DNA of 64,000 bases, taken from assembly GCA_009773805.1 (NCBI GenBank), contig WTXA01000002.1, forward strand, positions 434,001 through 498,000. The letters run 5' to 3'. The DNA is from Fusobacteriota bacterium (GTDB lineage Bacteria > Bacillota > TC1). This document shows positions 40,990-63,835 of this stretch, piece after piece. Position numbers and translations under genes: made by a program. Under the pieces are notes generated by a model. The model searched no databases, was not told the origin of the DNA, and worked only from the letters and a program-made list of their open reading frames with translations. Every line of letters begins with the position of its first letter. Within the stretch, counting starts at the first letter, position 1.

Positions 40990-40998
40990 TAAAAAATA

Positions 40999-41007
40999 TG
41001 CTATAAT
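40999..41007 (+). promoter_or_regulatory. Extended -10 promoter
   Basis: TGCTATAAT, an exact extended -10 element, directly after lipA. It would start a transcript near 41014 that reads through the leader to accB. No good -35. Confidence 0.5.
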
Positions 41008-41070
41008 AATTAAGCAAATGAAGATAATGAAGTATTTAACGAATTTAAAATATAGAGTAATAGATGATTT

Positions 41071-41110
41071 ATACCAACAATAGGTGTATTGTTGGTATAG
41101 GTTTTATTTT
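41071..41110 (+). terminator. Hairpin with U-rich tail after lipA
   Basis: Perfect 12-bp stem ATACCAACAATA, GGTG loop, complement (41071-41098), followed by GGTTTTATTTT. Likely lipA terminator, or an attenuator if the promoter at 41000 is used. Confidence 0.7.
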
Positions 41111-41292
41111 AATTAGGAAAGGAGTGATAGAAAAATTTTAAAGGATAAGATATAGTTTAATAAAGTAAAATTTAATATTAGTACTAAAAGAAGAATTTAA
41201 GTAAACATTCTCTAAGCTAAAAATTATCGTTATTATTTATTATTATTACCAGCAAGAGAATAAGGCTGATTCTTCTTTAAGGAGGAATTTAC

Positions 41293-41400
41293 ATGAGACC
41301 AAAAGATTTGCTAGTAGCAATCAGAGCCATATTCAATATCTTTGCCCAAGGCAAAGAAGATTTCAGTATGCCATCTCAACTTAATGTTAATTTCTCCTAG
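41293..41400 (+). CDS. 35-residue ORF, leader peptide or small protein
   Basis: Reads MRPKDLLVAIRAIFNIF and then AQGKEDFSMPSQLNVNFS. It has an excellent AAGGAGG nine bases before the ATG. Its stop codon is the last three bases of the left arm of the terminator that follows, an arrangement seen in leader-peptide attenuation. An amphipathic N-terminal half is possible. No family recognised. Confidence 0.6.
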   Translation: MRPKDLLVAIRAIFNIFAQGKEDFSMPSQLNVNFS

Positions 41401-41421
41401 GATTAATTCTAGGAGTTTTTT
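41394..41421 (+). terminator. Terminator hairpin upstream of accB
   Basis: Stem CTCCTAG/CTAGGAG with eight-base loop and a run of six T, ending 64 bases before accB. If transcription reaches it from the leader promoter it would limit expression of the fatty acid operon. Confidence 0.75.
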
Positions 41422-41484
41422 GTCTTTATAGAATAATCTAAAAAAGAAACGTAGATAATAACAAACAAATAAAAGGAGTATGAA

Positions 41485-41952
41485 ATGAAATTAGAAGATA
41501 TTTTAATACTAATTGACAGACTTGAAGAATCTTCAATTAGCAAATTAGTAGTAGAAACAGAAGAAGGAATGGTAGAAATTTCTAAGGAAGCAAAAGTTGT
41601 AATGCAAAGTGCACCAGCTTATCAGGCATCAGCACCAGCTAATGTGCCAGCAGCAGCTCATGTACCGGTACATAGTGGAGTAGCAGCAGCGGAGCCACAA
41701 GAAGAAAGTGGCATAGCCTATATTACTTCTCCTATAGTAGGAACATACTACAGCTCTTCAAATCCAGCATCAGATCCATTTGTAAAAGTTGGATCTGTAG
41801 TTGAAGAGGGACAGGTAGTATGTATTCTTGAAGCAATGAAGTTAATGAATGAAATTGAATCTGAACTTAACGGAGAAATACTAGAAATACTAGTTAAAAA
41901 CGAAGATATGGTAGAATTCGGCCAAAAACTATTTAAAGTGAGAGTAAAATAA
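41485..41952 (+). CDS. accB: Biotin carboxyl carrier protein of acetyl-CoA carboxylase
   Basis: Carries carboxybiotin between AccC and AccDA. The 155-residue protein has a short N-terminal domain, an Ala-Pro-rich flexible linker (about 42-75) and the biotinyl domain with Lys119 in ILEAMKLMNEIE. First gene of the acc-fab operon; its last base overlaps the accC start in TAATG. Confidence 0.96.
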   Translation: MKLEDILILIDRLEESSISKLVVETEEGMVEISKEAKVVMQSAPAYQASAPANVPAAAHVPVHSGVAAAEPQEESGIAYITSPIVGTYYSSSNPASDPFVKVGSVVEEGQVVCILEAMKLMNEIESELNGEILEILVKNEDMVEFGQKLFKVRVK

Positions 41953-43292
41953 TGTTTAAAAAAATATTGATTGCCAATAGAGGAGAGATTGCTGTCAGAA
42001 TAATAAGAGCTTGTAGAGAAATGGGTATTAAAACAGTAGCTGTTTATTCAACAGGCGACAAGGACGCTCTCCATAAGGAACTTGCAGACGAAGCAGTTTG
42101 TATAGGCAAGGCACCTTCAAAGGACAGCTATTTAAATGTCTCAAATATACTTAATGCTACTATTCTATCTGGAGCAGAAGCTATTCACCCAGGTTATGGT
42201 TTCCTATCAGAAAATGCTGCATTCGCAAGAATGTGTGAACAATGTAACATAAACTTCATAGGACCAACATCTGAGATGATAGAAAATATGGGCAACAAGT
42301 CTAAAGCCAAGGAAATAATGATGGCTGCAGGGGTTTCCATATCACCAGGATCAGAAGGTATACTTAATAGCTTAGACGAAGCTAAAGTTCTAGGTGAAAA
42401 AGTAGGTTATCCAGTTATGATAAAAGCATCAGGCGGCGGCGGTGGTAGAGGAATGAGAATCGCCTATAACGAAATCGAATTGGACCACGCCTATCATCAA
42501 GCTAAATCAGAAGCTGAAATGGCTTTTAAGGATGATAGAATTTACTTAGAAAAATTCATTGAAGAACCTAGACATATTGAAGTTCAAGTTCTTGCTGATA
42601 AATTTGGAAATGCTATTCACCTAGGTGAGAGAGATTGCTCAATCCAAAGAAAACACCAGAAGATGATTGAAGAATCACCGGCATTAATAAGTGATGAAGT
42701 AAGGACTGCTATTTATAAAGATGCTGTAATTGCAGCCAAGGCAGTAAACTACTTCAGCGCAGGAACAGTAGAATTTTTAGTAGATAAATATGGAAAACAC
42801 TACTTTATAGAAATGAATACAAGAATTCAAGTTGAACACCCTGTAACTGAAATGGTAACAGGAGTAGATCTTATAAAGGAGCAAATTAAGATTGCTGCAG
42901 GAGAAAAACTTGATTATACACAAGATGATATTAAAATAACTGGTCATGCAATTGAATGTAGAATCAATGCAGAAAAACCAGAAGAAGGTTTCCGCTCAAG
43001 CCCAGGCTTGATAACAAGACTATTCTTCCCGGGAGGCAATGGTGTACGTATAGATAGTTGTATTTATACAGGTTACTTTGTACCACCATATTATGATTCT
43101 ATGATCTGTAAATTGATTGTTCATGGAAAAGACAGAGATGAAGCTATAAATAAAATGCAAAGAGCTTTGGGAGAAATCATTATTGAAGGTATCGATACAA
43201 ATATTGCCTATCAATTTAAAATTCTTGGTACAAAAGAGTACCAGCTCGGCAAATTCAATACCAGCTTCATAAGCACTGTAATGGAGGAATAA
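41952..43292 (+). CDS. accC: Biotin carboxylase
   Basis: ATP-dependent carboxylation of biotin on AccB. The 446-residue ATP-grasp enzyme has LIANRGEIAVRIIRACREMG, the glycine-rich loop ASGGGGGRGMRI, ERDCSIQRKHQK and FIEMNTRIQVEHPVTEMV. Between accB and accD in an operon with near-zero gaps. Confidence 0.97.
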   Translation: MFKKILIANRGEIAVRIIRACREMGIKTVAVYSTGDKDALHKELADEAVCIGKAPSKDSYLNVSNILNATILSGAEAIHPGYGFLSENAAFARMCEQCNINFIGPTSEMIENMGNKSKAKEIMMAAGVSISPGSEGILNSLDEAKVLGEKVGYPVMIKASGGGGGRGMRIAYNEIELDHAYHQAKSEAEMAFKDDRIYLEKFIEEPRHIEVQVLADKFGNAIHLGERDCSIQRKHQKMIEESPALISDEVRTAIYKDAVIAAKAVNYFSAGTVEFLVDKYGKHYFIEMNTRIQVEHPVTEMVTGVDLIKEQIKIAAGEKLDYTQDDIKITGHAIECRINAEKPEEGFRSSPGLITRLFFPGGNGVRIDSCIYTGYFVPPYYDSMICKLIVHGKDRDEAINKMQRALGEIIIEGIDTNIAYQFKILGTKEYQLGKFNTSFISTVMEE

Positions 43293-43293
43293 T

Positions 43294-44187
43294 ATGCCAA
43301 TAGGTGATCTATTTAAAAAGAATTTAAAATATATAGAACTTCATTCTCAAAATGGAGTGGACAGAGAAGAAAGGGTAGAAAAGGAAGTTCCTTACATACC
43401 TGATAATCTTTTCGTAAAATGTCCATCTTGTGGAGAAAAGCTATATACAGAAGAAGTAGCTGCTAATCTAAATTCATGTAAATACTGTGAGCATCACTTT
43501 AGAATAGGAAATGTGGATAGACTAAAGATGATAGCGGATGAAGGCTCCTTTGTTGAGATTGATAAAAATATGACCTCAGTAAATACTTTGGATTATCCTG
43601 GTTATCTAGAGAAAATAGCTGGCTATCAAAAATCTAGCGGCATTACTGAAGCAATTGTAACAGGAACCTGTACTATTAATAGTATTAAAGTTGTTATTGG
43701 AGTTATGGATAGTAATTTCATGATGGGAAGTATGGGTAGTGTTGTCGGAGAGAAAGTTACCAGAGCAATAGAAAAAGCTATGGTTGAAAAGTTACCGTTA
43801 ATTATCTTTACAGCTTCAGGTGGAGCTAGAATGCAAGAGGGCATAATATCTCTTATGCAAATGGCTAAGACCAGCAGTGCTATCAAAAGATTTTCTGATG
43901 CGGGAGGTTTATACATTACAGTTATAACAGACCCAACAACTGGAGGAGTTACAGCTAGTTTTGCTATGCTTGGAGATATAATAATCGGTGAAAAGGGAGC
44001 CTTGATAGGCTTTGCTGGTAAGAGAGTTATTGAACAAACAATTAAACAAAAACTTCCTGATGAATTCCAAACAGTTGAATTTCTTAAAGAAAAGGGCTTT
44101 ATTGATACAATTGTAGCCAGAAAAGATATGAAGGCACTTCTATCTAGAATCTTAATTCTTCACCAGGAGGTGCAAAATGACAATTAA
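43294..44187 (+). CDS. accD: Acetyl-CoA carboxylase carboxyltransferase beta subunit
   Basis: With AccA moves the carboxyl group to acetyl-CoA. The 297-residue protein has a four-cysteine zinc ribbon (CPSCGEK and CKYCEHHF, about residues 47-69) and the crotonase fold with [18 protein letters not shown]. Overlaps accA by 11 bases. Confidence 0.96.
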
Positions 44188-45124
44188 AGAAAAAGAAAGA
44201 AAAATCGATGAACTTAAATTAAAGATTAATGAACTGAAACTTATTGAAAGCAATGAAAAAATCGATTTTACTGACCAAATAGAAGAATTAAACGAAAAAA
44301 TCCTGGAAATGGAAAAAAGAATCGTTGATGAGATGACACCTTGGGATAGAGTGTTAGTTTCAAGAGAACAAAAAAGACCTACCTCTTTGGAATATATCGA
44401 TGAAATCTTTGATGACTTTATTGAATTCCATGGAGACAGATACTTTGGTGATGACAAAGCTATAGTTGGTGGAATAGCAAGTCTTGATGGTATTAAAGTA
44501 ACAGTTGTTGGTGAACAAAAAGGAACAGATACCAAGGATAATATTTATAGAAACTTTGGGATGCCCTCACCTGAAGGTTATCGTAAAGCACTTCGTTTAA
44601 TGAAACAAGCTGAAAAGTTTGGCAGACCTATTGTAACTTTTGTAGATACTCCAGGAGCATTTTGTGGGGTGACAGCTGAAGAAAGAGGTCAAGGGGAAGC
44701 TATTGCTAAAAACCTTATGGAAATGGCAGGCTTAAAAGTACCAGTATTAACTTTCATCATTGGTGAAGGAGGTAGTGGTGGTGCCTTGGCAGTAGCTGTA
44801 TCCAATAAGATATACATGTTGGAAAATAGTATTTATGGAGTGCTTTCTCCAGAAGGTTTTGCCAGCATATTATGGAAAGATGGCACAAGAGCTCAAGAGG
44901 CTGCTGATGTTATGAAAATTACTGCCAATGATTTATTAGCACTTAAGGTAATTGATGGTATAATTGAAGAACCTGCAGGTGGAGCACATAAGGACTTTTC
45001 TATGGTTGCTGGAAACATCAAGGAAGTTATGTTAAGAGAACTTAAAGAATTACAATTACTAAGCCAGGAAGAATTATTGAATCATAGATATGAGCGGTTC
45101 AGAGCCTTTGGGAAATTTGAGTAA
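44177..45124 (+). CDS. accA: Acetyl-CoA carboxylase carboxyltransferase alpha subunit
   Basis: 315-residue partner of AccD. It has an N-terminal coiled-coil (about 1-55), [24 protein letters not shown] and [15 protein letters not shown]. The end [14 protein letters not shown] is typical. Confidence 0.96.
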
Positions 45125-45141
45125 TTGGGGAAGTAGGAAAT

Positions 45142-46107
45142 ATGTACGGAAAAATTATTGGAACAGGTTTTTATGTTCCTGATAATAAGGTGCCTAACGA
45201 ATTTTTCGAAAGCATCATGGAAACTAATGATGAATGGATTAGTTCTAGAACAGGAATAAAATCCAGATATTTTTCTAAAGGGGAAAATACCTCTGATTTA
45301 GGAACTAAAGCAGCTGAAATAGCCTTGGCAGATAGTGGGCTATCACCTGAAGATTTAGATATTATTATTTTTGCAACTATGACGCCAGATACTTTTATGC
45401 CTTCAACCGCTTGCTTAGTACAAAAGAAAATTGGAGCAGTAAATGCGTTTGCTTTTGATATTAGTGCCGCTTGTTCTGGTTTTATGTACGCTTTAGCTGT
45501 GGCCAAGGAATTTCTAGAAAATGGTAAAGTTAAGAATGCATTGGTAATTGGTGGAGAGGTCATGTCAAAAGCCTTAGACTTTACTGATCGTGGAACAGCA
45601 GTTCTTTTTGGAGATGGAGCCGGTGCTGTAGTACTACAAAGATCCGAAGAACCAGGTATAATAAATTCATATCTTGGTTCTCGAGATGATGTAAAAGGAA
45701 GTCTAGTTTTAAAAGCTTTACCGGTTGATAATCCTTTTGTTAGTAATGAAAATGACACAAACAAGATGACAATGGATGGCAGAGAGGTCTTTAAATTTTC
45801 AAAGCAAGTAATTATGGATACAATTGACAAGGTCCTTGAAGGAACTGGATATAATTACGATGATATTAAAATGATAATACCTCATCAAGCTAATACTAGA
45901 TTAATCGACTATGCCATTGATAAAAATGATAAATTAAAAGATAAGTTCTACATAAATGTAGACAGGTTTGGAAATACATCCGCTGGTAGCATTGCTATCG
46001 CACTTAGTGAAGTAAGACAAAAGAAACTTGTGGAAGCCGGAGACCTAGTAATTTTAGTTGGTTTTGGTGGAGGTTTTACATGGGGATCTTTGTTAATAAA
46101 AATGTAA
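45142..46107 (+). CDS. fabH: 3-oxoacyl-ACP synthase III
   Basis: Starts fatty acid synthesis by condensing acetyl-CoA with malonyl-ACP. The 321-residue thiolase-fold protein has catalytic Cys111 in DISAACSGFMYAL, His in IIPHQANTRL and Asn in VDRFGNTSAGS. Confidence 0.96.
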   Translation: MYGKIIGTGFYVPDNKVPNEFFESIMETNDEWISSRTGIKSRYFSKGENTSDLGTKAAEIALADSGLSPEDLDIIIFATMTPDTFMPSTACLVQKKIGAVNAFAFDISAACSGFMYALAVAKEFLENGKVKNALVIGGEVMSKALDFTDRGTAVLFGDGAGAVVLQRSEEPGIINSYLGSRDDVKGSLVLKALPVDNPFVSNENDTNKMTMDGREVFKFSKQVIMDTIDKVLEGTGYNYDDIKMIIPHQANTRLIDYAIDKNDKLKDKFYINVDRFGNTSAGSIAIALSEVRQKKLVEAGDLVILVGFGGGFTWGSLLIKM

Positions 46108-46125
46108 ATTAAAGGAGAGAGAAAA

Positions 46126-46350
46126 ATGGAACAAAGAATTAAAGAAATCTTAGCAGAAGAATTAAGCGTAGACATCGAGGAAATCAAATTGGAAACTAGC
46201 CTTAAGGATGACTTGAATGCAGACTCAATTGATATGATGCAAGTCGTAGACGTACTTGAGCAAGAATTTGGCGTAGAAGTTGACACTAGCGAACTAGCAA
46301 ACATTATAACTGTTGCTGATATCGTTAACTATATCGAAAGCCATAAATAA
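46126..46350 (+). CDS. acpP: Acyl carrier protein
   Basis: 74-residue acidic carrier with the phosphopantetheine Ser34 in LNADSIDMMQVV. Followed by a short terminator-like hairpin that may keep downstream transcripts lower than acpP. Confidence 0.96.
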   Translation: MEQRIKEILAEELSVDIEEIKLETSLKDDLNADSIDMMQVVDVLEQEFGVEVDTSELANIITVADIVNYIESHK

Positions 46351-46356
46351 AGAAAG

Positions 46357-46375
46357 CGACCTTTAAGGTCGTTTT
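46357..46375 (+). terminator. Weak terminator between acpP and fabK
   Basis: Five G-C-rich pairs (CGACC/GGTCG) with a five-base loop and four T. Too weak for full termination, so partial termination is likely. Confidence 0.45.
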
Positions 46376-46400
46376 CCTATTAACTGGAGGAATAAACATA

Positions 46401-47333
46401 ATGTTTGACAAAACTATAGAAAAGCTCCTAAACATAAAGTATCCAATCATCCAAGGCGGGATGGCCTGGATATCAGACTCATCCCTAGCGTCTGCTGTTT
46501 CTGAAGCAGGTGGCTTAGGCGTAATTGCAGCAGGTGGAGCACCTGGTGAAATTGTACGTCAAGAAATTATCAAGACAAAACAAATGACAGACAAGCCTTT
46601 TGCTGTTAATGTAATGCTTCTTAGCGAATTTGCTGATGAAGTAGCCAAAGTTGTTATTGAAGAAAAAGTACCAATTGTAATTACTGGTGCAGGTAGTCCA
46701 GAGAAGTATCTTGAAGCCTGGCATCAAAATAATATCAAGGTTATCCCAGTAGTTCCAAGTGTACTACTTGCTACACGTATGGAGAAACTTGGTGTGGATG
46801 CTGTAGTAGTGGAAGGTATGGAAGCAGGGGGCCACATTGGAGAATTGACAACTATGGCACTATTGCCACAAGTAGTCGATGCTTTAAAGATTCCTGTTAT
46901 AGCGGCTGGTGGAATAGCAGATGGTAGAGGATTTGCCGCTGTTGTCATGTTAGGTGCCAATGGTGTTCAAGTAGGAACTAGATTCCTAGTAGCTAACGAA
47001 TGTACTGTTCATGAAAACTACAAAGAACAAATTCTTAAGGCAAGAGATACTGATACTATAGTAACTGGTAGAGTTACAGGGCATCCAGTACGTGCCTTGA
47101 AAAATAAATTAGCAAGAGAATTTATAAAGTTAGAAAAAAACGGGGCCTCTATTGCTGAACTTGAAGCACTTGGTGTAGGTAAACTACAAAAAGCTGCAAA
47201 AGATGGTGATGTTGCTGGTGGAGCATTGATGGCAGGTCAAATTGCCGGTTTGGTATGCAAGAAACAATCAGCAAAGGAAATCGTTGAAGAAATATATAAT
47301 CAAGGATTAGAAGTATTAAAAAAATATTGCTAA
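46401..47333 (+). CDS. fabK: Enoyl-ACP reductase II (FMN)
   Basis: Flavin-dependent final reduction of the elongation cycle, replacing FabI and insensitive to triclosan. The 310-residue TIM-barrel protein has IIQGGMAWIS, GGLGVIAAGGAP and the FMN-phosphate loops VVEGMEAGGHIGE and VIAAGGIADGRGFAA. It resembles nitronate monooxygenases, but the fab context settles the call. GGAGG upstream. Confidence 0.95.
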   Translation: MFDKTIEKLLNIKYPIIQGGMAWISDSSLASAVSEAGGLGVIAAGGAPGEIVRQEIIKTKQMTDKPFAVNVMLLSEFADEVAKVVIEEKVPIVITGAGSPEKYLEAWHQNNIKVIPVVPSVLLATRMEKLGVDAVVVEGMEAGGHIGELTTMALLPQVVDALKIPVIAAGGIADGRGFAAVVMLGANGVQVGTRFLVANECTVHENYKEQILKARDTDTIVTGRVTGHPVRALKNKLAREFIKLEKNGASIAELEALGVGKLQKAAKDGDVAGGALMAGQIAGLVCKKQSAKEIVEEIYNQGLEVLKKYC

Positions 47334-47352
47334 TTCCCACTAGGAGGATAAA

Positions 47353-48276
47353 ATGAAAACTGCAATAATTTTTCCAGGACAAGGGGTACAAGCTGTTGGA
47401 ATGGCTAAGGATTTTGTAGATAATTTCGGGGAAGCAAGGGAAGTTTTCGAAATTGCCAATGAAACATTAAATAGAGACATGCTCAAGCTGGTTATGGAAG
47501 GTACAATAGATGATTTAAATATTACCAGAAATACCCAACCCGCAATTATATCAGCTGAAATAGCCATGCTTAGAGTCTTTATGAAACACAAGGTAATCGG
47601 AGATGTGACTGCTGGATTGAGTTTAGGAGAATATTCTAGCCTAATTTACAGCGGTGCTTTGAAATTGGAAGACGCACTGCCACTTGTTGAAAAAAGAGGC
47701 GAATTAATGTTACAGGGTCAAAAAGGTAAAATGGCCGCTGTAATTGGTGCAGATAGAGAAAAGGTAATTGATATCTGTAGAAGAATTTCAATAACAGGGG
47801 ATTTTGTTGTACCTGCAAATTTTAATTCATTGGAACAAATAGTTATATCAGGAGATGTTAAAGGAGTGGAAAAAGCTATTCCTAAATTGGAAGAAATCGG
47901 TGCTAGAGTAGTACCCCTAAATCTTTCATCTCCCTTTCATACAAAACTACTTAAATCAGCAAGTATTGGACTTGGAGAATTGCTGAAGGATGTAGAAATC
48001 AAAAAGCCGATGATACCAGTATATTTTAATACAATAGCTGATATCGAGGAAAATCCTGAGGCTATCAAGGATCTCCTTACTAGACAGGTAATGAAACCTG
48101 TATTATGGGTAGATACTATGATTAAGTTACTTGATTCAGGGGTAGATACATTTATTGAAATTGGGCCAGGAAAGACTTTGGCCGGTTTCTTAAAAAGAAT
48201 GCCATATGAATATAAAGTATATAATGTAAATAATTTGGCAACTTTAGAAAAAACTTTAACTAGTTTAGGAGGTTAA
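47353..48276 (+). CDS. fabD: Malonyl-CoA:ACP transacylase
   Basis: Makes malonyl-ACP. The 307-residue protein has FPGQGVQAVGM and the nucleophile serine in GLSLGEYSSL (His of GHSxG is Leu, as often in Gram-positive FabD). Two bases before fabG. Confidence 0.95.
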   Translation: MKTAIIFPGQGVQAVGMAKDFVDNFGEAREVFEIANETLNRDMLKLVMEGTIDDLNITRNTQPAIISAEIAMLRVFMKHKVIGDVTAGLSLGEYSSLIYSGALKLEDALPLVEKRGELMLQGQKGKMAAVIGADREKVIDICRRISITGDFVVPANFNSLEQIVISGDVKGVEKAIPKLEEIGARVVPLNLSSPFHTKLLKSASIGLGELLKDVEIKKPMIPVYFNTIADIEENPEAIKDLLTRQVMKPVLWVDTMIKLLDSGVDTFIEIGPGKTLAGFLKRMPYEYKVYNVNNLATLEKTLTSLGG

Positions 48277-48277
48277 T

Positions 48278-49009
48278 ATGGGAAAAGTAGTCTTTATTAC
48301 TGGTGGAACAACTGGTATAGGAAAAGCTATCGCACAAAAATTCAGCAAGAACGGCTATAACCTAGCCCTGAATTATTTTTTTGACGAAGAAGCAGAGGCT
48401 GTTAAAAAAGAATTTGAAGAAAACGGTGTAAAAGTGTTACTTCTTCGTGGTGATATCAGAGACAGTAAAGTTGTAGCTGAAATGATAGATAAGACTGTTG
48501 CAGAATTTTCATCAATAGATGTCTTAATAAACAATGCAGGTATAACCAAAGATGGTCTGCTATTAAGAATGAAAGATGAAGAATTTGATGCAGTTATTGA
48601 TACGAATTTAAAAGGAGCATTCTATGCACTTAAATTCGCTGCTAAGCACATGGCTAAACAAAGAAGTGGTCGTATTGTTAATATTGCTTCAGTTGTTGGT
48701 CTTGTTGGTAATATAGGTCAAGCTAATTATGCAGCAGCAAAAGCTGGTTTGATTGGTGTAACTAAAACTGCCGCTAAGGAACTTGCTTCAAGAAATATCT
48801 TGGTTAATGCTATTGCACCAGGTTTTATTGAGACAGTAATGACAGCGAAGTTAAGTGAAGAAATTAAAGAAGCAGCCAATAGTAAGATACCACTTGGAAG
48901 ATTTGGCAAACCTGAGGAAATAGCTAGTGCAGTCTATTACTTAGGAAGTGATGAGAATACCTATATTACTGGACAGGTACTAACTGTTGACGGTGGTATG
49001 GTTATTTAA
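48278..49009 (+). CDS. fabG: 3-oxoacyl-ACP reductase
   Basis: NADPH-dependent short-chain dehydrogenase of 243 residues. TGGTTGIGKAIA forms the cofactor loop; the catalytic Ser, Tyr and Lys are in IASVVGLVGNIGQANYAAAKAG. Confidence 0.95.
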   Translation: MGKVVFITGGTTGIGKAIAQKFSKNGYNLALNYFFDEEAEAVKKEFEENGVKVLLLRGDIRDSKVVAEMIDKTVAEFSSIDVLINNAGITKDGLLLRMKDEEFDAVIDTNLKGAFYALKFAAKHMAKQRSGRIVNIASVVGLVGNIGQANYAAAKAGLIGVTKTAAKELASRNILVNAIAPGFIETVMTAKLSEEIKEAANSKIPLGRFGKPEEIASAVYYLGSDENTYITGQVLTVDGGMVI

Positions 49010-49021
49010 TGGAGGAAAAAA

Positions 49022-50260
49022 ATGAGAAGAGTTGTAATAACTGGAATGGGGACAATTAATCCTCTAGGTCTAGGTGTTGAAGAGTTTTGGAATAATGTTA
49101 AGATTGGCAAATGTGGAATTAGTGAAATAACTAATTTTGACACAACTGACTATAAGACTAAACTGGCCGCAGAAGTTAAGAATTTTATTCCTGGAGAATA
49201 TATTGAGGCTAAGGAAACAAAAAGAATGTCAAGATTTAGTCAGTTTGCTGTAGCTGCTGCTAAGGAAGCCTATGCTGATTCAGGTTTAGGTAATAGTGAA
49301 TTTGATCATGATCGTATGGGAGTTTATGTTTCAACTGGAGTTGGCGGCATATCTGACTGTGAAGTAGAGATTGAAAATTTGACAACCAAGGGACCAAGAA
49401 GAGTTAATTCTCTTTTTATCCCGATGATGATTGGTAATATGGCTAGTGGTAATGTTGCTATTTCCTTGAAAGCTAATGGTCCTTGCCTTGATATCGTTAC
49501 TGCTTGTGCTTCAAGTAATAATGCTATGGGTGAAGCTTTCTATGCAATCAAGGGTGATAGAGCAGATATTATTGTTGCTGGTGGTACAGAGTCTTCTATT
49601 GGAAGATTGAGTATAGCAGGTTTCATGAATTTAAGAGCATTAAGTGATAGCCCTGAGCCTAATAGAGGTTCAATTCCTTTCGATAAAGAAAGAAGTGGAT
49701 TTGTAATGGGTGAAGGTGCTGGTATTTTAATATTAGAAGAATTAGAACATGCTTTAAAAAGAGGTGCGAAAATATATGGTGAGTTAGCTGGTTATGGTAC
49801 TACTTGTGATGCTTTCCACATTACTGCTCCTTGTGATAATGGATCTCAAGGTGCAAGAGCAATGCAACTTGCTATAGATGTTGCTGGGATTGAACCTAAA
49901 GATATTAGTTATATTAATGCTCATGGTACAAGTACACCACTTAATGATAAGACTGAAACTTTGGCTGTTAAAAGAGTCTTTGGTGAATATGCCTATAAGA
50001 TTCCTATGAGTTCAAGTAAGTCAATGTTTGGTCATTTACTTGGTGCTGCTGGTGCAGTTGAGGGTATTGTTTGTATCAAATCATTGATTGAAGGTTTTGT
50101 TCCTGCAACTATCAACTATAAGGTAGCTGATCCAGAATGTGATTTGGATATTGTTCCTAATGTTGGTAGACCTAATCAAGATCTTAAGTATGCGATTTCC
50201 AATTCATTAGGTTTTGGTGGTCATAATGCTTCTGTTTTGTTTAAGAAGTGGGAGGAATAG
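49022..50260 (+). CDS. fabF: 3-oxoacyl-ACP synthase II
   Basis: Elongating condensing enzyme of 412 residues. Catalytic Cys162 in VTACASSNNAMG, His in NAHGTSTPLND and His in SMFGHLLGAAG. Confidence 0.96.
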   Translation: MRRVVITGMGTINPLGLGVEEFWNNVKIGKCGISEITNFDTTDYKTKLAAEVKNFIPGEYIEAKETKRMSRFSQFAVAAAKEAYADSGLGNSEFDHDRMGVYVSTGVGGISDCEVEIENLTTKGPRRVNSLFIPMMIGNMASGNVAISLKANGPCLDIVTACASSNNAMGEAFYAIKGDRADIIVAGGTESSIGRLSIAGFMNLRALSDSPEPNRGSIPFDKERSGFVMGEGAGILILEELEHALKRGAKIYGELAGYGTTCDAFHITAPCDNGSQGARAMQLAIDVAGIEPKDISYINAHGTSTPLNDKTETLAVKRVFGEYAYKIPMSSSKSMFGHLLGAAGAVEGIVCIKSLIEGFVPATINYKVADPECDLDIVPNVGRPNQDLKYAISNSLGFGGHNASVLFKKWEE

Positions 50261-50263
50261 TTA

Positions 50264-50692
50264 ATGGTTATGAATCAAGAAGATATTAAAAAGATTATAC
50301 CTCATAGAGATCCTTTTCTTTTAGTAGACGAGGTTCTTGAACTTGATAGTGTTACTAATAAGATTGTGGCATTAAAGCATGTTCGTGAAGAAGAATACTA
50401 TTTTAAGGGACATTTCCCAGGTAGACCAATCATGCCAGGTGTTTTGATTGTTGAATCACTTGCTCAAGCTGGTGCTATTGCTCTTCTTTCAAAAGAAGAG
50501 TTTAAAGGTAAGTATGCTTTGTTTGCAGGAATCAAGGATTGTCGTTTTAGACGTCAGGTCTTGCCTGGAGATACTATTAGATTAGAAGTTGAACTAGTTA
50601 AGATTAGAGGTCCGGTTGGTTATGGCGTAGGTAAAGCCTATGTTGGTGATGAATTGGCAGTTAATGTTGATATGACTTTCGCTATAGGTTAG
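50264..50692 (+). CDS. fabZ: 3-hydroxyacyl-ACP dehydratase
   Basis: Dehydrates 3-hydroxyacyl-ACP. The 142-residue hot-dog-fold protein has IIPHRDPFLLVDEV, the catalytic His in FKGHFPGRPIMPGVL and Glu in LIVESLAQAGA. No FabA or FabM is in the window, so how unsaturated chains are made is unknown. Last gene of the operon. Confidence 0.96.
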   Translation: MVMNQEDIKKIIPHRDPFLLVDEVLELDSVTNKIVALKHVREEEYYFKGHFPGRPIMPGVLIVESLAQAGAIALLSKEEFKGKYALFAGIKDCRFRRQVLPGDTIRLEVELVKIRGPVGYGVGKAYVGDELAVNVDMTFAIG

Positions 50693-55818: not shown

Positions 55819-55907
55819 GGAGAGGTGTCCGAGCGGTTTAAGGAGCTGGTCTTGAAAACCAGTGACTTCGAAAGGGGCCGTGGGTTCGAATCCCACCCTC
55901 TCCGCCA
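55819..55907 (+). tRNA. tRNA-Ser (UGA)
   Basis: Class II tRNA with long variable arm. Acceptor GGAGAGG pairs with CCTCTCC, anticodon loop CTTGAAA gives UGA, T-loop GTTCGAATC, genomic CCA. Confidence 0.95.
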
Positions 55908-55915
55908 ATATTGCT

Positions 55916-56008
55916 GGAGAAATGGCCGAGTGGCTGAAGGCGCTTGCCTGCTAAGCAAGTGTACGATGTTAAGTTGTACCGAGGGTTCGAATCCCTCTTT
56001 CTCCGCCA
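55916..56008 (+). tRNA. tRNA-Ser (GCU)
   Basis: Class II tRNA. Acceptor GGAGAAA with TTTCTCC, anticodon loop CTGCTAA gives GCU, long variable arm, T-loop GTTCGAATC, genomic CCA. Eight bases after the first Ser tRNA. Confidence 0.95.
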
Positions 56009-56014
56009 TACTTT

Positions 56015-56091
56015 GTGCTTTTAGCTCAGCTGGATAGAGCGCTTGACTACGAATCAAGAGGTCGGGGGTTCGAATCCCTCAAGGCACACCA
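56015..56091 (+). tRNA. tRNA-Arg (ACG)
   Basis: 77-base tRNA. Acceptor GTGCTTT with AAGGCAC, anticodon loop CTACGAA gives ACG (read as ICG after deamination), T-loop GTTCGAATC, genomic CCA. It is the probable integration target of the adjacent element. Confidence 0.95.
56055..56091 (+). other. Probable attL at the 3' end of tRNA-Arg
   Basis: The integrase gene begins the element just beyond this tRNA and faces it, the standard pattern for insertion into a tRNA 3' end. The matching attR repeat would lie outside the window, so the core limits are approximate. Confidence 0.5.
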
Positions 56092-56096
56092 TCAAG

Positions 56097-56129
56097 CCTG
56101 TACTGTCAGTAGACATTGCGGGTTTTTTT
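56097..56129 (+). terminator. Terminator of the tRNA operon
   Basis: Stem CCTGTACTGTC with GACATTGCGGG around AGTA: ten of eleven positions pair (three G-U, one mismatch), then seven T. Confidence 0.7.
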
Positions 56130-56157
56130 GTTACCTATTTGGATTTACTAATCTTGG

Positions 56158-56179
56158 TTTGACACCCTATTTGACACTC
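56158..56179 (+). repeat. Two direct copies of TTTGACAC
   Basis: Copies at 12-base spacing between attL and the integrase gene. They could be arm-type integrase binding sites. Short, so possibly chance. Confidence 0.3.
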
Positions 56180-56200
56180 TTAGCTCTTCAAAAAAAATTA

Positions 56201-57238
56201 TTACTTGCGTTTAAACACTTCTAATTCAGCAATTCCATCTTGTGATTTATCAGTGTTATGGGTATATACATCTAGGCTAAATAAAGCTGAATGATGACCA
56301 AGTCTTTGTTGAATTCCTTTTGGTTTAATTCCAGCTTCAGCAAGCATTGTAGCATGAGTATGTCTTATCTGATGAAAATGATAATCATAACCAAGCTTCT
56401 TACATAGTTTTGAGAATGTCTTGCTTATAACATCAGGTGACTGTACCTCATTAATGCTATTAGGAAATAGAAAAACAGAATTAGATTTTATTGCTTTTAG
56501 CATATCTGATAGTTCTATTGGAATAGGTACTTTTCTTAATCCATAGTTTGATTTTGGTGATTTAATTATTAGTCCTTTTGATGACTTTGAAATGGACCGT
56601 CTTACTGTTAAAAGGTTGTCGTTTATATCACTTTTTTGTAGTCCTGCTATTTCTCCGACTCTTAGTCCTGTGCACCAAGCTAGATACAAGATTGTTTTCA
56701 TTCGCTGATCAGCTGTTTCATATATTAACCAAAAGTGATTAATAGGGATTGTAGTCATTTCTTTCTTCTTATATTTAGGCTTTCTTATATTTAGCATTAA
56801 ATTGAAATCTACTATTTCATCAATAGCTGCTTCTTTGAAAATCAAAGATAAAACAATATAAACCATGACCTTAGTCTTATCTCCTATACCTAATAAATCT
56901 AATGTCTGGAATAATTTTTTAATATCTGATATTTTAATATCTGCCATAAGCTTGTATTCTAAATATGGTGTTATATGTTTTTTTAATGTTGTTTCATATG
57001 AATCTATAGTGGACTGTGCAAGTTCCCTAGATCTCATAATTAAATACTTTTCTGAATACTCTTTAAATGTTATAACTTCGTACTGGCCAACAACGTATTT
57101 ATTATAATAATTACTCGCTTTTTCTTCAGCTTCATCTTCCGAAGCTCCATAGAAAAACATCTTAATTGGTTTACCATCGCTTCTTACCCCAGCTGTAATC
57201 CTTGCTTGATATCTGCCGTCTTTTCTTAATGTTGCCAT
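56201..57238 (-). CDS. int: Tyrosine recombinase integrase
   Basis: Phage-type integrase of 345 residues. It has an N-terminal arm-binding domain with KDGRYQARIT, a core-binding domain (about 55-150), and a catalytic domain with Arg193 in CTGLRVGE, His289 and Arg292 in HQIRHTHAT, His315 in RLGHHS and the nucleophile Tyr325. The ATG at 57238 has AAAGGTGGTG upstream; the longer frame to 57277 has none. It points at tRNA-Arg, marking the left end of the element. Confidence 0.93.
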   Translation of the reverse strand: MATLRKDGRYQARITAGVRSDGKPIKMFFYGASEDEAEEKASNYYNKYVVGQYEVITFKEYSEKYLIMRSRELAQSTIDSYETTLKKHITPYLEYKLMADIKISDIKKLFQTLDLLGIGDKTKVMVYIVLSLIFKEAAIDEIVDFNLMLNIRKPKYKKKEMTTIPINHFWLIYETADQRMKTILYLAWCTGLRVGEIAGLQKSDINDNLLTVRRSISKSSKGLIIKSPKSNYGLRKVPIPIELSDMLKAIKSNSVFLFPNSINEVQSPDVISKTFSKLCKKLGYDYHFHQIRHTHATMLAEAGIKPKGIQQRLGHHSALFSLDVYTHNTDKSQDGIAELEVFKRK

Positions 57239-57270
57239 TATTGTCACCACCTTTCTATTGTGATAAGATA

Positions 57271-57347
57271 TAAACATCCCTTGTGAAGTGGGGATGTTGA
57301 TTCATGAGAACCCTGATTGCTTGCCGGCGGATGGGTTCTTTTTTAAT
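57271..57347 (+). ncRNA. Candidate small RNA divergent from the integrase gene
   Basis: A plus-strand unit with a possible promoter TTGTCA (57241-57246), 17-base spacer, TAAGAT (57264-57269), an eight-bp hairpin AACATCCC/GGGATGTT (57273-57298), then AGAACCC/GGGTTCT with a loop and six T (57307-57343). The T-run is on the plus strand only, so it is not the end of the minus-strand gene next to it. No ORF of note. Prediction only. Confidence 0.4.
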
Positions 57348-57778
57348 TACAAAATATGTGTTTTAATGAAATTCTTAGTTGTTATATATACTATGAAGTG
57401 TATTGCCAATTTCATAATAGTAAGTATTAAAATTAATGTAGAAAAAATTACTATAGCCTTTATATTATCTGTATCTAAATACATAAAAATTGAAAATAGA
57501 TTTATCAAAGTGGCAGACCAGTAAAATAAATTGAATAAAATTGAATTTCTATATTTCATTAAAATAATTGTATTTAAATTATTATGTTTTAATATAATTT
57601 TATAATGCGGAAAACCCTTATAACTTACTGGTCCAATTAGATATTTATTATTTCTCTTTTTTATGATTAGTATATTGGATGAACTATTGATAAGATTATC
57701 AATTTTCTTCTCCATTGCATTGATGCTTAGAATTGACTTATATTTCATTTCTTCTCTTTTAACCTCAGTTCTTAACAT
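57347..57778 (-). CDS. Hypothetical membrane protein of the element
   Basis: 143 residues, basic, with two hydrophobic segments near the C-terminus (about 78-100 and 106-132). No recognised family. The frame has no clear ribosome binding site at its first ATG; the ATG at 57748 is an alternative. Its position between integrase and the ImmA-like gene is typical for lysogeny-module accessory genes such as superinfection exclusion, but nothing in the sequence shows that role. Confidence 0.55.
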   Translation of the reverse strand: MLRTEVKREEMKYKSILSINAMEKKIDNLINSSSNILIIKKRNNKYLIGPVSYKGFPHYKIILKHNNLNTIILMKYRNSILFNLFYWSATLINLFSIFMYLDTDNIKAIVIFSTLILILTIMKLAIHFIVYITTKNFIKTHIL

Positions 57779-57807
57779 AGTAATTGTTTTTTATATACCA
57801 ATAATAC

Positions 57808-58104
57808 CTATATTGATTGAACATTATTGAAATTTTGCTCTTTTAAAAATAATGATTTACCATTTTCAAAATCACTATTATAAATATGCATTAACTCATG
57901 CATTAAAGCTGATCTTTGAGTTCTCTTTGAATACATAGTATTTATGTAAACAACATGGCCTGTATCGTATTCGTTCTTTATGGTTAATCCCTTGATGCTC
58001 TTTGGAAATATTGTCTCTACAATACAGCAGTCCAGGGATGAAAGTATGTAATGATATTCTTCGATTGAAACACCATGTTCGATTTTCTTGATTAAATCTT
58101 TCAT
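57808..58104 (-). CDS. ImmA/IrrE-like metalloprotease
   Basis: 98 residues with the zinc motif HELMHIYN near residue 70. ImmA-type proteases cleave cI-like repressors to induce integrative elements, and the likely substrate is encoded 57 bases upstream. Short compared with full ImmA proteins, so perhaps a minimal form. The ATG at 58104 has AGGAGG six bases upstream. Confidence 0.75.
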   Translation of the reverse strand: MKDLIKKIEHGVSIEEYHYILSSLDCCIVETIFPKSIKGLTIKNEYDTGHVVYINTMYSKRTQRSALMHELMHIYNSDFENGKSLFLKEQNFNNVQSI

Positions 58105-58160
58105 TGTCACCCTCCTAATAGACCTTATTATATCTAATTAGTTGGGTTACATATTGGACA

Positions 58161-58547
58161 CTAATCATTGCTATTTTCTGGGAGAGTAGCCTTAAGTATT
58201 CTAACTAGTCGTTCTTTATCCTCTTTAGACAATTTGCCAGTCTTCATAAATAGCATTTTTAACTCATGATCTCTTTCAAGCATTTGTAATACCTCTATAG
58301 CGTCTGGATCATATTCTTGAATAGGTTCGTGTGTATCTTCTTCCCAGCCCATTAAATATGCTGGTTCAACTCCTAATGCTTTTGCAATAAGTTCCAATTT
58401 TGTTATTGGCATTTTATCAATGTTTCCAGTTTCGTATCTTTGCAATGTAGATGGGCTAATTCCTGTTATATCCGCTAAATCTTGATATGACATATCTTTA
58501 TTTTTCCTAACCTTTGCAATTCTTTCTCGAATTTCTAATTCACTCAT
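58161..58547 (-). CDS. cI-like XRE-family repressor
   Basis: 128-residue lysogeny repressor. The helix-turn-helix is near residues 17-40 (MSYQDLADITGISPSTLQRYE), followed by LIAKALGVEPAYLMGWEE and a C-terminal tail probably for dimerisation. No LexA-type autoproteolysis domain, consistent with control by the ImmA-like protease. Faces the Cro-like gene across a shared operator region. Confidence 0.88.
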   Translation of the reverse strand: MSELEIRERIAKVRKNKDMSYQDLADITGISPSTLQRYETGNIDKMPITKLELIAKALGVEPAYLMGWEEDTHEPIQEYDPDAIEVLQMLERDHELKMLFMKTGKLSKEDKERLVRILKATLPENSND

Positions 58548-58637
58548 AGTATTACCTCTCTTCTATATACTATTCTATATAATTTTTTCAGAAATGCAAT
58601 AATATTTTAATAAATACGAAAATATTTTCTTAAAACT

Positions 58638-58653
58638 ATTGCAATAATGCAAT
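58638..58653. promoter_or_regulatory. Operator O1
   Basis: Perfect inverted repeat ATTGC-N6-GCAAT in the repressor-Cro control region. Confidence 0.65.
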
Positions 58654-58673
58654 AAAAAGTTTAATATATGAAT

Positions 58674-58689
58674 ATAGCAATAATGCAAT
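58674..58689. promoter_or_regulatory. Operator O2
   Basis: ATAGC-N6-GCAAT, one mismatch from O1 and with the same AATAAT spacer. It ends just before the ribosome binding site of the Cro-like gene. Confidence 0.6.
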
Positions 58690-58703
58690 GGAGGTGATAA
58701 TAG

Positions 58704-58910
58704 ATGTATCAGGACAAAATCAAAGGTAGGATGGCTGAACTAAATATTAGCAGAGCAGAATTAGCAAAGAAATTACATTTAACCCCACAGGGACTAGGTC
58801 TCAAGCTTAATGGAACTACTGACTTTACAATAAAAGAAGCCAGAGTATTGATTAAAGTTTTGAAAATCAAGAACCCAGGGGATATTTTTTTTAAAAATAG
58901 TATTGCATAA
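58704..58910 (+). CDS. Cro-like XRE-family DNA-binding protein
   Basis: 68 residues, essentially one helix-turn-helix domain (LNISRAELAKKLHLTPQGLG near residues 13-32). First gene of the rightward early operon, opposite the cI-like repressor, so probably the Cro counterpart. GGAGGTG nine bases upstream. Operator O3 overlaps its stop codon. Confidence 0.85.
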   Translation: MYQDKIKGRMAELNISRAELAKKLHLTPQGLGLKLNGTTDFTIKEARVLIKVLKIKNPGDIFFKNSIA

Positions 58911-58917
58911 ATGCAAT
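58902..58917. promoter_or_regulatory. Operator O3
   Basis: Perfect ATTGC-N6-GCAAT inverted repeat spanning the stop codon of the Cro-like gene and lying 25 bases before the next gene. Confidence 0.55.
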
Positions 58918-58941
58918 ATATAAATAAAGGGAGGTGAGAAG

Positions 58942-59169
58942 ATGTTTAAGAAAAAAGAAGAGATTAAGGAGAATCCAAATGAACCATTATTCAAGAAAAC
59001 TATTGAAGAGCTTATAGCAGTAATTGACCACAATGAAATTACTGTATTGGAGGTAGAAGAAATTATATTCCCAACAGCATTGAGAACAATTAGAGGGCTA
59101 GCCCTTATACCCTATAAAAAAAGGATGTCGAGGACACAAAGGCTAGTCATGTTCAAAAATAGAATTTAA
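58942..59169 (+). CDS. Hypothetical early phage protein
   Basis: 75 charged residues with no known domain. GGGAGGTG upstream of the ATG supports translation. Its stop overlaps the end of the opposed 70-residue gene by four bases. Confidence 0.6.
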   Translation: MFKKKEEIKENPNEPLFKKTIEELIAVIDHNEITVLEVEEIIFPTALRTIRGLALIPYKKRMSRTQRLVMFKNRI

Positions 59170-59378
59170 CCATCAGGAGTCATGCAATGATCGCATAATT
59201 CCTTGAATGCTGGATGAGATTTGATTTCCGAATAAAAATAATCAGATGCAAATACATGATCATGATTCATATTGTAGATTAAGCAAGAAGCACAATAATT
59301 ATCTAGATCATGAGCTACACCCGTATTTGTGTTAAGGACATATCTTTTGTCATTAAAAGGCGGGTTTGGAATTCTCAT
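59166..59378 (-). CDS. Small protein with two CxxC pairs, opposite strand
   Basis: 70 residues with CASC near residue 29 and CDHC near residue 62, plus several His, suggesting a zinc or metal site. A very strong GGAAGGAGGTG precedes the ATG and an extended -10 TGTTATAAT lies at 59402-59410 on the minus strand, so it appears to be an independently transcribed gene against the early operon. Function unknown. Confidence 0.65.
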   Translation of the reverse strand: MRIPNPPFNDKRYVLNTNTGVAHDLDNYCASCLIYNMNHDHVFASDYFYSEIKSHPAFKELCDHCMTPDG

Positions 59379-59406
59379 ATAATCACCTCCTTCCTAAGGT
59401 GATTAT
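59379..59406 (-). promoter_or_regulatory. Inverted repeat over the start of the CxxC gene
   Basis: Perfect nine-bp arms ATAATCACC and GGTGATTAT with a ten-base spacer that holds most of the ribosome binding site; the -10 lies in the upstream arm. It could be an operator or an RNA hairpin affecting translation. Confidence 0.5.
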
Positions 59407-59457
59407 AACATACAAAAAATAATATAAAACATTATTTCAGAAAGGAGCGATACATAT

Positions 59458-59724
59458 ATGGAAATCCCACTATGGAAACAAACGATGTTAAATCCAATGG
59501 AATACAGTGAGTATGCGAACATGTCGATAAGAATCATATATGAATACTGCAATAAAAAAATAATTCCATGTATTAAAACAAATAAAGGATTCAAGATACA
59601 CAGAATTGAGGCAGATAAAAAATTAGCAGAAATGGCATTGAATCATGTGGGGCATACTGAAAGACACAGGGCAGAATTAATAGAGGAACCAGTAAAACAA
59701 AGAAGGAGAAGAATGGAGTTATAA
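59458..59724 (+). CDS. Excisionase-like DNA-binding protein
   Basis: 88 residues. The MEYSEYANMSIRIIYEYCNK and KIHRIEADKKL pattern resembles the short winged-helix excisionase/MerR-type domain; the C-terminus is basic (KQRRRRME). AAAGGAG nine bases upstream. It may act as Xis or as an early regulator. Confidence 0.55.
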   Translation: MEIPLWKQTMLNPMEYSEYANMSIRIIYEYCNKKIIPCIKTNKGFKIHRIEADKKLAEMALNHVGHTERHRAELIEEPVKQRRRRMEL

Positions 59725-59726
59725 AA

Positions 59727-59864
59727 ATGCCGAAAAACAGAAATTTAAAAGAAAGAATAAAACTTAATGATCTAACAGAATTTGAGGAATGGGCCTTAGC
59801 GGTGATGCCGATTTTAATAATGATTGCATTAATATTGGGGGCTTACTTAATAGTCTGGTGGTAA
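59727..59864 (+). CDS. 45-residue single-span membrane protein
   Basis: Too short for routine calling. A charged N-terminal half is followed by a hydrophobic segment (about residues 24-43) ending in VWW. GGAG upstream within the end of the excisionase-like gene, two bases after its stop. Confidence 0.5.
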   Translation: MPKNRNLKERIKLNDLTEFEEWALAVMPILIMIALILGAYLIVWW

Positions 59865-59887
59865 TACGGAAGTATAGGAGGTGAAAA

Positions 59888-60061
59888 ATGGAAACAAGTA
59901 AATTTCTAACAGAAAATAACAAACAGGTGATGGAAGATAACAAAGACCTGGTAATTATTAGAGGTGTTTATGATCTAAGAAATCGGACAAGAGAACAATG
60001 TGAGGAAAGCAAGAAGAACAACCAAAAGAGAAAGGAGGAAATATTGAGTGTGCAAATTTAA
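59888..60061 (+). CDS. 57-residue charged phage protein
   Basis: Hydrophilic ORF with ATAGGAGGTG five bases before the ATG. No recognised domain. Overlaps the following 42-residue ORF by 14 bases. Confidence 0.5.
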   Translation: METSKFLTENNKQVMEDNKDLVIIRGVYDLRNRTREQCEESKKNNQKRKEEILSVQI

Positions 60062-60176
60062 AAAGGACAAAGAAAAAGAAAGTACTTTAAAAACAGATGT
60101 TGCTGGCGAGCTAATCAATTTTATCAAAGACACTTTCTTAGTAAATTATAACACCATTTTCAAGGAGGGGCAATGA
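60048..60176 (+). CDS. 42-residue ORF coupled to the YqaJ gene
   Basis: GTG start with AAAGGAGG nine bases upstream. Its TGA overlaps the yqaJ start in ATGA, the usual sign of translational coupling. Reads MCKFKKDKEKESTLK and has no known domain. Confidence 0.5.
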   Translation: MCKFKKDKEKESTLKTDVAGELINFIKDTFLVNYNTIFKEGQ

Positions 60177-60811
60177 TTAATAACGAAAAGGATTGGCTCC
60201 AGGAAAGATTAAAGGGAATTGGTGGATCTGAAGCAAGTGCCATTATAGGTAAAAACCCATATATGAGTAATCAGGTACTATGGGAGTTAAAGGTTGGACT
60301 TAAGGAACATGAGGACATTGGTAATAAACCATGTGTTCAATATGGTAAAGAAGCAGAAGCTCCCTTGAGAGAATTATTCAAATTAGATTTTCCGAAATAT
60401 GAGGTTCAATATAAGGATTTTGATTTAATCAGACATGATAAACATCAATTCATTTTAGCAACGTTGGATGGAAGATTGATTGAAAAGGAAACCGGAAGAA
60501 TTGGGATTCTAGAAATCAAGACCACTGAAATACTTAGATCCATGCAAAAAGAAAAGTGGAACCAAGGAATTCCAGATAACTACTATATCCAAGTCTTATG
60601 GCAGTTACTAGCAACCGGTTATGACTTTGCAGTACTTAAAGCCCAACTTAAGTATCAATATTCTGGAGAAGTTAGAACTGAATCAAAACATTACTTTATA
60701 GAACGGTCAGAAGTCCAAGAAGATATAGATTATTTAGAAGAGGTAGGGATTAAGTTCTGGGAGCATGTTGAGAATAAGAATAGACCACCACTAATACTGC
60801 CTGAATTATAA
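60173..60811 (+). CDS. YqaJ-family recombination exonuclease
   Basis: Alkaline-exonuclease-type nuclease that would make single-strand ends for RecT. The 212-residue protein has the GIGGSEASAIIGKNPY opening and the PD-(D/E)xK motif as Asp99, Glu114 and Lys116 in ATLDGRL and ILEIKTT. RecT is encoded 1.7 kb downstream in the same operon. Confidence 0.9.
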   Translation: MINNEKDWLQERLKGIGGSEASAIIGKNPYMSNQVLWELKVGLKEHEDIGNKPCVQYGKEAEAPLRELFKLDFPKYEVQYKDFDLIRHDKHQFILATLDGRLIEKETGRIGILEIKTTEILRSMQKEKWNQGIPDNYYIQVLWQLLATGYDFAVLKAQLKYQYSGEVRTESKHYFIERSEVQEDIDYLEEVGIKFWEHVENKNRPPLILPEL

Positions 60812-60822
60812 GGAGGGTAAAT

Positions 60823-61107
60823 ATGGAAAAAGTAAATATACTTGGGATTGAATACGAGATTATAAAAGTTCCAAGCATTTCAAGAGATGTCTACAGGGTG
60901 GGTGAAATACATTTTGAAAGACAAGAAATATTAATACTAGATACTTTAAGTAAGGATATGGCTAAAGTTACTTTATTACACGAGGTAATACATGCAATTC
61001 TAGTAAATTTAGGTCTAACAGAAGATGCTGGAAATGAAAACTTGGTGCAAGGACTTGCAATCGCATTACACCAAGTGATCAAGGACAATAAGATTATTTC
61101 TTCTTAG
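60823..61107 (+). CDS. Phage metallopeptidase-like protein
   Basis: 94 residues with a zinc HEVIHAIL motif near residue 53 and an upstream beta-rich part. Similar short HExxH proteins are frequent in phage early operons of Firmicutes. GGAGGG upstream. Substrate unknown. Confidence 0.7.
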   Translation: MEKVNILGIEYEIIKVPSISRDVYRVGEIHFERQEILILDTLSKDMAKVTLLHEVIHAILVNLGLTEDAGNENLVQGLAIALHQVIKDNKIISS

Positions 61108-61228
61108 ATTTTGTCTGTGATAAAGCACTAGCTGCTACAGATTTAACAGTTTTAGAGCTTTTAGGACTAGTCAAAATCTTAGATGCTTTAGAAGCAACTG
61201 AAGAAGATGTTTGTTTTTTATTAGCCAA
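61094..61228 (-). CDS. 44-residue Ser/Lys/Ala-rich phage protein, TTG start
   Basis: Reads LANKKQTSSSVASKASKIL and later KSVAASALSQTKSKKK. I recognise the ASKxL and AxSALSQ pattern from small proteins common in Gram-positive prophages, of unknown role. AAAGGTGGTG nine bases upstream and an extended -10 TGGTATAAT at 61252-61259 support expression. It is antisense to the early operon and overlaps the previous gene by 14 bases at the stop. Confidence 0.65.
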   Translation of the reverse strand: MANKKQTSSSVASKASKILTSPKSSKTVKSVAASALSQTKSKKK

Positions 61229-61251
61229 ATAATCACCACCTTTCTGCATAT

Positions 61252-61260
61252 ATTATACCA
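61252..61260 (-). promoter_or_regulatory. Extended -10 promoter for the 44-residue gene
   Basis: TGGTATAAT on the minus strand, giving a very short leader before the ribosome binding site. No clear -35. Confidence 0.45.
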
Positions 61261-61325
61261 AGCATAAAGTTGGAAGTATCGAAATTAAGCACTTTACAAT
61301 TATTCAAATTTAAGGAGGTAAACAA

Positions 61326-61583
61326 ATGCAAATAGTAAAAGTACAATTCAAACATTCGCATACTGGTGAATTCAAAGGAACTGAGTATAGCTACTTCGCA
61401 GAAGATGACAATCTAGCAATAAATGATGAGGTGGAAGTAGATACAAAGTTTGGTAAATCAATAGCCAAGGTTACTCAAGTTAATGTGCCAGCTGAAGAAG
61501 TAGTTACATTCATAGACTATATGAAAACTATACCAAAGGCACCAGTAATGCCAATATTAAATAATGAAGATGTACCATTTTAA
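61326..61583 (+). CDS. Hypothetical phage protein
   Basis: 85 residues, beta-rich in appearance, with KVQFKHSHTGEFKG and VEVDTKFGKSIAKVTQV. Such proteins accompany DUF1351/RecT modules, with no known activity. AAGGAGG upstream. Confidence 0.65.
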   Translation: MQIVKVQFKHSHTGEFKGTEYSYFAEDDNLAINDEVEVDTKFGKSIAKVTQVNVPAEEVVTFIDYMKTIPKAPVMPILNNEDVPF

Positions 61584-61594
61584 GGAGGAAAAAC

Positions 61595-62458: not shown

Positions 62459-62462
62459 AAAA

Positions 62463-63821: not shown

Positions 63822-63835
63822 GGAAGGAGTTAATC

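Follow-up and report, generated by a model that had tools for sequence, protein, structure and literature searches.

A conserved leader with a short open reading frame precedes the acc-fab operon and may act as a translation-coupled attenuator

The gap between lipA and accB in the 64,000-nucleotide stretch of DNA analysed here (the window) holds a 5′ leader that, judged from sequence, may control the acc-fab operon by translation-coupled transcription attenuation, a reading to which we assign a probability of about one half. lipA ends at position 40989 and accB starts at 41485, and the leader is the + strand in between. As a conserved leader the element is well supported; as a switch it is unproven. 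Translation of a short leader ORF would decide whether the lipid genes are transcribed, because an alternative fold would switch the ORF's Shine-Dalgarno (SD) sequence and a ribosome at its stop codon would block a terminator.

Control of bacterial fatty-acid synthesis has been described almost wholly through DNA-binding proteins such as FapR, FabT and FadR, and FapR and FabT act on fatty-acid operons. If the present reading is true, RNA folding and ribosome activity would have a direct hold on lipid synthesis in a lineage that lacks FapR, and the leader would be a compact natural chain from an RNA switch through an upstream ORF (uORF) to an intrinsic terminator.

Results

The acc-fab operon and its known regulators

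Within the operon (Table 1), accB, accC, fabH, fabK and fabF were identified by NCBIfam and the remaining genes by reading their translations. The operon contains no FapR or MarR gene, which bears out the statement in a first-pass annotation of this DNA that neither FapR nor FabT is encoded there. None of the ten genomes of the order in our collection, the window's own among them, has FapR (NF003359), and the B. subtilis control was positive. The genome has seven MarR-type matches, all outside the window; a FabT-like regulator may act from elsewhere in the genome. Searching Rfam at the gathering threshold gave no match for the leader, and the relaxed threshold gave chance-level matches alone.

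Conserved blocks of the leader

The window was compared with G001 and G004, two species of the same genus with the same lipA-leader-accB layout; G003, whose draft assembly lacks accB, was left out. In this alignment, conserved columns numbered 18 of 23 in the promoter, 20 of 24 in the anti-SD and SD, and 23 of 29 in terminator 2, as against 30 of 74 in a spacer and 21 of 48 in the stretch before accB. The promoter, the anti-SD/SD and terminator 2, together with hairpin 1 and the loop motif, stand out, with conservation well above that of the surrounding leader.

Table 1. Features of the lipA-accB leader and the downstream operon (window coordinates)
Feature	Position	Strand	Basis
Extended -10 promoter element TATGCTATAAT	40997..41007	+	Pattern count; same sequence directly behind the lipA stop in G001 and G004
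Hairpin 1 with U-rich tail TTATTTTAAT	41066..41112 (hairpin 41066-41103)	+	Folding; three-species alignment
Segment 1 AAAGAAGAA, P1 5′ arm; would pair with segment 2 and free the SD	41187..41195	+	Identical 9-mer in three species
P2 stem-loop, arms 41208-41219 and 41250-41260	41208..41260	+	Two compensatory pairs and two mismatches, three species
AU-rich loop motif of P2 (TTATCGTTATTATTTATTATTATTA)	41224-41248	+	18/22 columns identical
Segment 2 TTCTTCTTT, P1 3′ arm or anti-SD	41270..41278	+	Pairing energies, three species
Leader ORF SD region AAGGAGGAATT, segment 3	41279..41289	+	Sequence; conserved
Leader ORF, 35 aa, ATG, MRPKDLLVAIRAIFNIFAQGKEDFSMPSQLNVNFS	41293..41400	+	Open frame kept in G004 and G001, same stop
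Terminator 2 (intrinsic), stop codon 41398-41400 in left arm	41394..41421	+	z -3.9; G004 z -3.3, G001 z -3.2
Operon accB accC accD accA fabH acpP fabK fabD fabG fabF fabZ	41485..50692	+	ORFs

Promoter and hairpin 1

The first-pass annotation had listed four parts in this leader, namely an extended -10, a hairpin with a U tail, a 35-codon ORF with AAGGAGG and a terminator whose left arm contains the ORF stop codon, and all four were found. By pattern count, the window has three extended -10-type sites in 64 kb against 0.69 expected, and the one in the leader is the only well conserved promoter-like site in the gap. Its conservation would place the transcription start near 41013. A consensus scan of the spacer between terminator 2 and accB (41421-41484) revealed no promoter-like site on the + strand from which accB might be driven; such a promoter would, according to the first-pass annotation, have spoken against attenuation.

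Hairpin 1 (17 bp) has a folding energy of -18.7 kcal/mol (z = -6.2) and is identical in 46 of 47 columns among the three species, whose leaders otherwise diverge. Each genome has a single copy. This degree of identity exceeds the need of a plain terminator; the hairpin may be the lipBA terminator, a first attenuator or an operator. It also speaks against the putative switch, in that it lies between the promoter and the switch, so that transcripts of the operon would need to get past it. At the matching place in G005, which belongs to another genus, there is a different hairpin of equal strength (z = -7.5).

The leader ORF keeps its frame more than its protein

An AAGGAGG at 41279-41285 precedes the ATG of the leader ORF by seven bases. 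The ORF is 35 codons long in the window, 50 in G004 and 67 in G001; its start and its UAG stop are shared, and all indels among the three species are in-frame, the lengths differing by whole codons. When the ORF bodies were shuffled, the frame was open in 9.7% of cases for the window, 1.9% for G004 and 0.6% for G001. The first-pass annotation had held that a lack of conservation of the ORF would count against attenuation; the frame is retained in both sister species.

The encoded peptides of G001 and G004 are only 34-40% identical to that of the window. All three carry KDL close to the start and A-x-G-K-x-x-F towards the end, and diverge elsewhere. The 67-residue G001 product is strongly hydrophobic, and the window peptide has lost the hydrophobic middle. 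No Pfam match was found for the peptides, and a search for relatives in 61 genomes gave nothing convincing and none outside the genus. What is kept thus seems to be the reading frame more than the protein, as would be expected if translating the leader counts for more than what it encodes.

The leader ORFs of G001 and G004 begin with MKLKDL, close to the AccB start (MKLKDI in G001 and MKLEDI in the window; regions compared, 41293-41310 and 41485-41502). The leader ORF may descend from a duplicated accB start, or may mimic that start.

The stop codon lies within terminator 2

The terminator 2 hairpin (41394-41415, -11.3 kcal/mol) is followed by TTTTTT, and the TAG of the leader ORF falls within its left arm in all three species. 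Among the window's 51 ORFs of at least 150 aa, none has its stop in a terminator left arm. The leader thus has the arrangement of a translation-coupled attenuator: downstream of the promoter and ahead of the first structural gene it carries a short ORF with its own ribosome-binding site, and before accB an intrinsic terminator positioned for overlap with a ribosome.

Mutually exclusive pairings upstream of the ORF

A stem-loop in front of the leader ORF (41187-41278) was missed by the first-pass annotation. Segment 2 can pair either with segment 1 or with the SD (AAGGAGGAA, in segment 3), and this option is present in all three species. Pairing of segments 1 and 2 has an energy of -10.0, -8.3 and -9.2 kcal/mol in the window, G004 and G001, respectively, and pairing of segments 2 and 3 has -7.1, -7.1 and -5.5 kcal/mol. 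The 1:2 pairing forms P1, which encloses P2, a second stem with a long AU-rich loop. The segment 1 9-mer is identical in the three species amid a diverged linker; in the alignment it scores 6 of 9 columns, with G004 shifted by two bases, and in register it is identical.

Compensatory stem changes had been named in the first-pass annotation as support for attenuation. P2 provides two such pairs in the three sequences, but these are few, 52 of 500 shuffles reach as many, and P2 of the window contains two mismatches. P1 is invariant across the three complete leaders, so that covariation says nothing about it. As in riboswitches in general, mutually exclusive folds that would hide or free an expression signal are present in the three species, although the region as a whole is only mildly more stable than shuffles (z = -2.8 for the window; -1.0 and -1.5 for its two congeners). 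The case for a switch would therefore come mainly from the identity of the arms beside a diverged linker and from their exclusive complementarity, not from stability.

A further candidate pairing (3:4) would join the SD to the left arm of terminator 2 and could bring about antitermination without translation. Its energy is -12.5 kcal/mol in the window and -13.0 kcal/mol in G001, but it is weak in G004 and 5-8% of shuffles reach it, and we do not count it as evidence.

Distribution of the element

A covariance model (R1) run over 399 genomes of the phylum found no element beyond its three source genomes, a gapped pattern combining the P1 arms and the SD returned the same three from the same set, and the covariance model applied to loci with other copies of the AU motif found no further element. 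The AU motif was also considered as a genome-wide operator and rejected, as it showed no clear excess over a reversed control. The complete element is thus known in 3 of 399 phylum genomes, and G005 and G002 show its outline alone.

In G005, an unrelated stable hairpin follows lipA, and behind it stands a stem whose loop carries TTATTATTTATTATT repeats. A 21-codon ORF then precedes accB, and its UAG opens the left arm of a hairpin (z = -3.8). This hairpin has no U tract, and shuffled versions of the stem region fold just as well. At this locus (L013, minus strand, ~2100-2180) two direct copies of TTATTATTTATTATTTATTATTATTC lie in the loop before the short ORF. In G002, accB stands behind bioY, and a motif variant, GTTATTATTGATTATT, and an SD-hiding hairpin are found ahead of bioY (locus L012, minus strand, 2562-2676); by eye, a gene upstream in this locus resembles biotin ligase. 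Both outlines are leads, and homology is unproven.

Discussion

A candidate mechanism

In the mechanism that we propose, transcription would begin from the extended -10 and the RNA would take one of two folds. When segments 1 and 2 pair, P1 would form around P2 and leave the SD of the leader ORF free; the ORF would then be translated up to its UAG, the ribosome would cover the left arm of terminator 2, and polymerase would enter accB. When segment 2 instead lies on the SD, the leader ORF would stay untranslated, terminator 2 would form and the operon would be off. The signal would presumably be read by P2 and its AU-rich loop.

The first-pass annotation had suggested that translation of the short ORF could decide whether RNA polymerase reaches accB. 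Consistent with that suggestion are the lack of a consensus promoter before accB, the kept frame, the overlap of stop and terminator in three species and the SD-hiding fold. For the mechanism as a whole, the absence of FapR from the order and the outlines in G005 and G002 also count in favour, and the missing U tract in G005 counts against. We regard it as partly supported, because compensatory changes are few, a run of regulatory codons is missing and the complete element is found in three species alone.

Relation to known systems

In a trp-type attenuator, successive RNA segments have alternative pairings and end in a terminator. The acc-fab leader resembles this plan in its alternative pairings of successive segments followed by a terminator, but its choice lies upstream of the leader ORF and would hide the SD, and it has no regulatory codons. 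FapR and FabT control the same kind of operon, but both are DNA-binding proteins; here FapR is absent and no MarR gene is linked.

The ilvBNC operon of Corynebacterium is controlled by uORF attenuation with an ilvB-II motif (PMC10272879). There too, a conserved, genus-restricted leader ORF stands before a biosynthetic operon subject to attenuation, but the Corynebacterium peptides are rich in the regulated branched-chain amino acids, whereas the acc-fab peptide has no such bias and its switch would act on initiation. Parallels also come from Mycobacterium tuberculosis. According to one report, a B12 riboswitch with a uORF precedes ppe2, and translation of the uORF is required for PPE2 expression (PMC11260477); another describes a pe20 M-box with a uORF that combines a translational expression platform with premature transcription termination (PMC12810186). 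Both place translation of a short uORF under the control of a structured leader, as proposed here, but the aptamers belong to known classes, termination at the M-box is Rho-dependent and PPE2 is expressed by reinitiation. The acc-fab leader has no known aptamer, has an intrinsic terminator containing the uORF stop, and serves a fatty-acid operon. Riboswitch-uORF control is thus already known from M. tuberculosis; a literature search that had most subscription journals outside its reach yielded no paper linking leader-ORF attenuation or riboswitches to acc genes or to a fatty-acid operon.

Alternative explanations

The leader ORF might instead be a free-standing small-protein gene with its own terminator, as the first-pass annotation had offered as an alternative, in which case accB would depend on leaky read-through or on a promoter that escaped recognition, and the leader would have no regulatory part. 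The good SD, the ATG and the terminator suit such a gene, and the hydrophobic G001 product looks like a small membrane protein. The divergence of the peptide, the loss of the hydrophobic middle in the window and the failure to find a Pfam match or a relative outside the genus make it the less likely of the two, and where a terminator separates a gene from an essential operon that has no conserved promoter, control is needed; we consider this explanation unlikely. Still less probable is a DNA-binding regulator, such as a distant MarR/FabT-like protein, that would use hairpin 1 as its palindromic operator or bind the AU motif; the folds of the RNA would then be incidental. Hairpin 1 is a perfect palindrome with 13-bp arms near the promoter, identical in three species, and MarR-type proteins are present in the genome. 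However, hairpin 1 occurs once per genome, the AU motif shows no clear excess over its reversed control, FapR is absent, and the ORF, the stop in the terminator and the SD switch would be left unexplained. Classical regulatory-codon attenuation of the trp/his/ilv type, with stalling at scarce-tRNA codons selecting the fold, could account for a leader ORF before a terminator with alternative pairings. Yet none of the three leader ORFs has a single-codon run, and none of their peptides a run of regulated amino acids; their composition differs between species and the putative switch precedes the ORF instead of forming part of it, so that we consider this type very improbable.

Two further possibilities concern what the leader might sense. 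P2 and its AU-rich loop could be bound by a protein, for instance AccB, AccD or a cold-shock protein, or by an sRNA, with feedback on the same leader. A long, single-stranded, conserved AU-rich loop suits a protein or sRNA better than a compact ligand pocket, and the MKLKDL start shared by two of the leader ORFs recalls AccB, but this resemblance spans six residues only. Such a site, which we hold to be a long shot of about the same order as the small-protein gene, would be more a refinement of translation-coupled attenuation than its exclusion. We also entertain, with considerable doubt, that P1/P2 and the AU-rich loop form a new RNA sensor in this genus, which would read a metabolite or protein of fatty-acid or biotin metabolism, set translation of the leader ORF and thereby acc-fab transcription, and replace FapR/FabT. 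Related elements would then be expected upstream of bioY-accB in G002 and of accB in the sister genus that G005 represents.

Elsewhere in the window (55819-64000), a cluster of three tRNA genes is probably the integration site of an element: behind it come an integrase-like gene (56201-57277, minus strand), a repressor-like gene and then phage-type genes as far as the end of the window.
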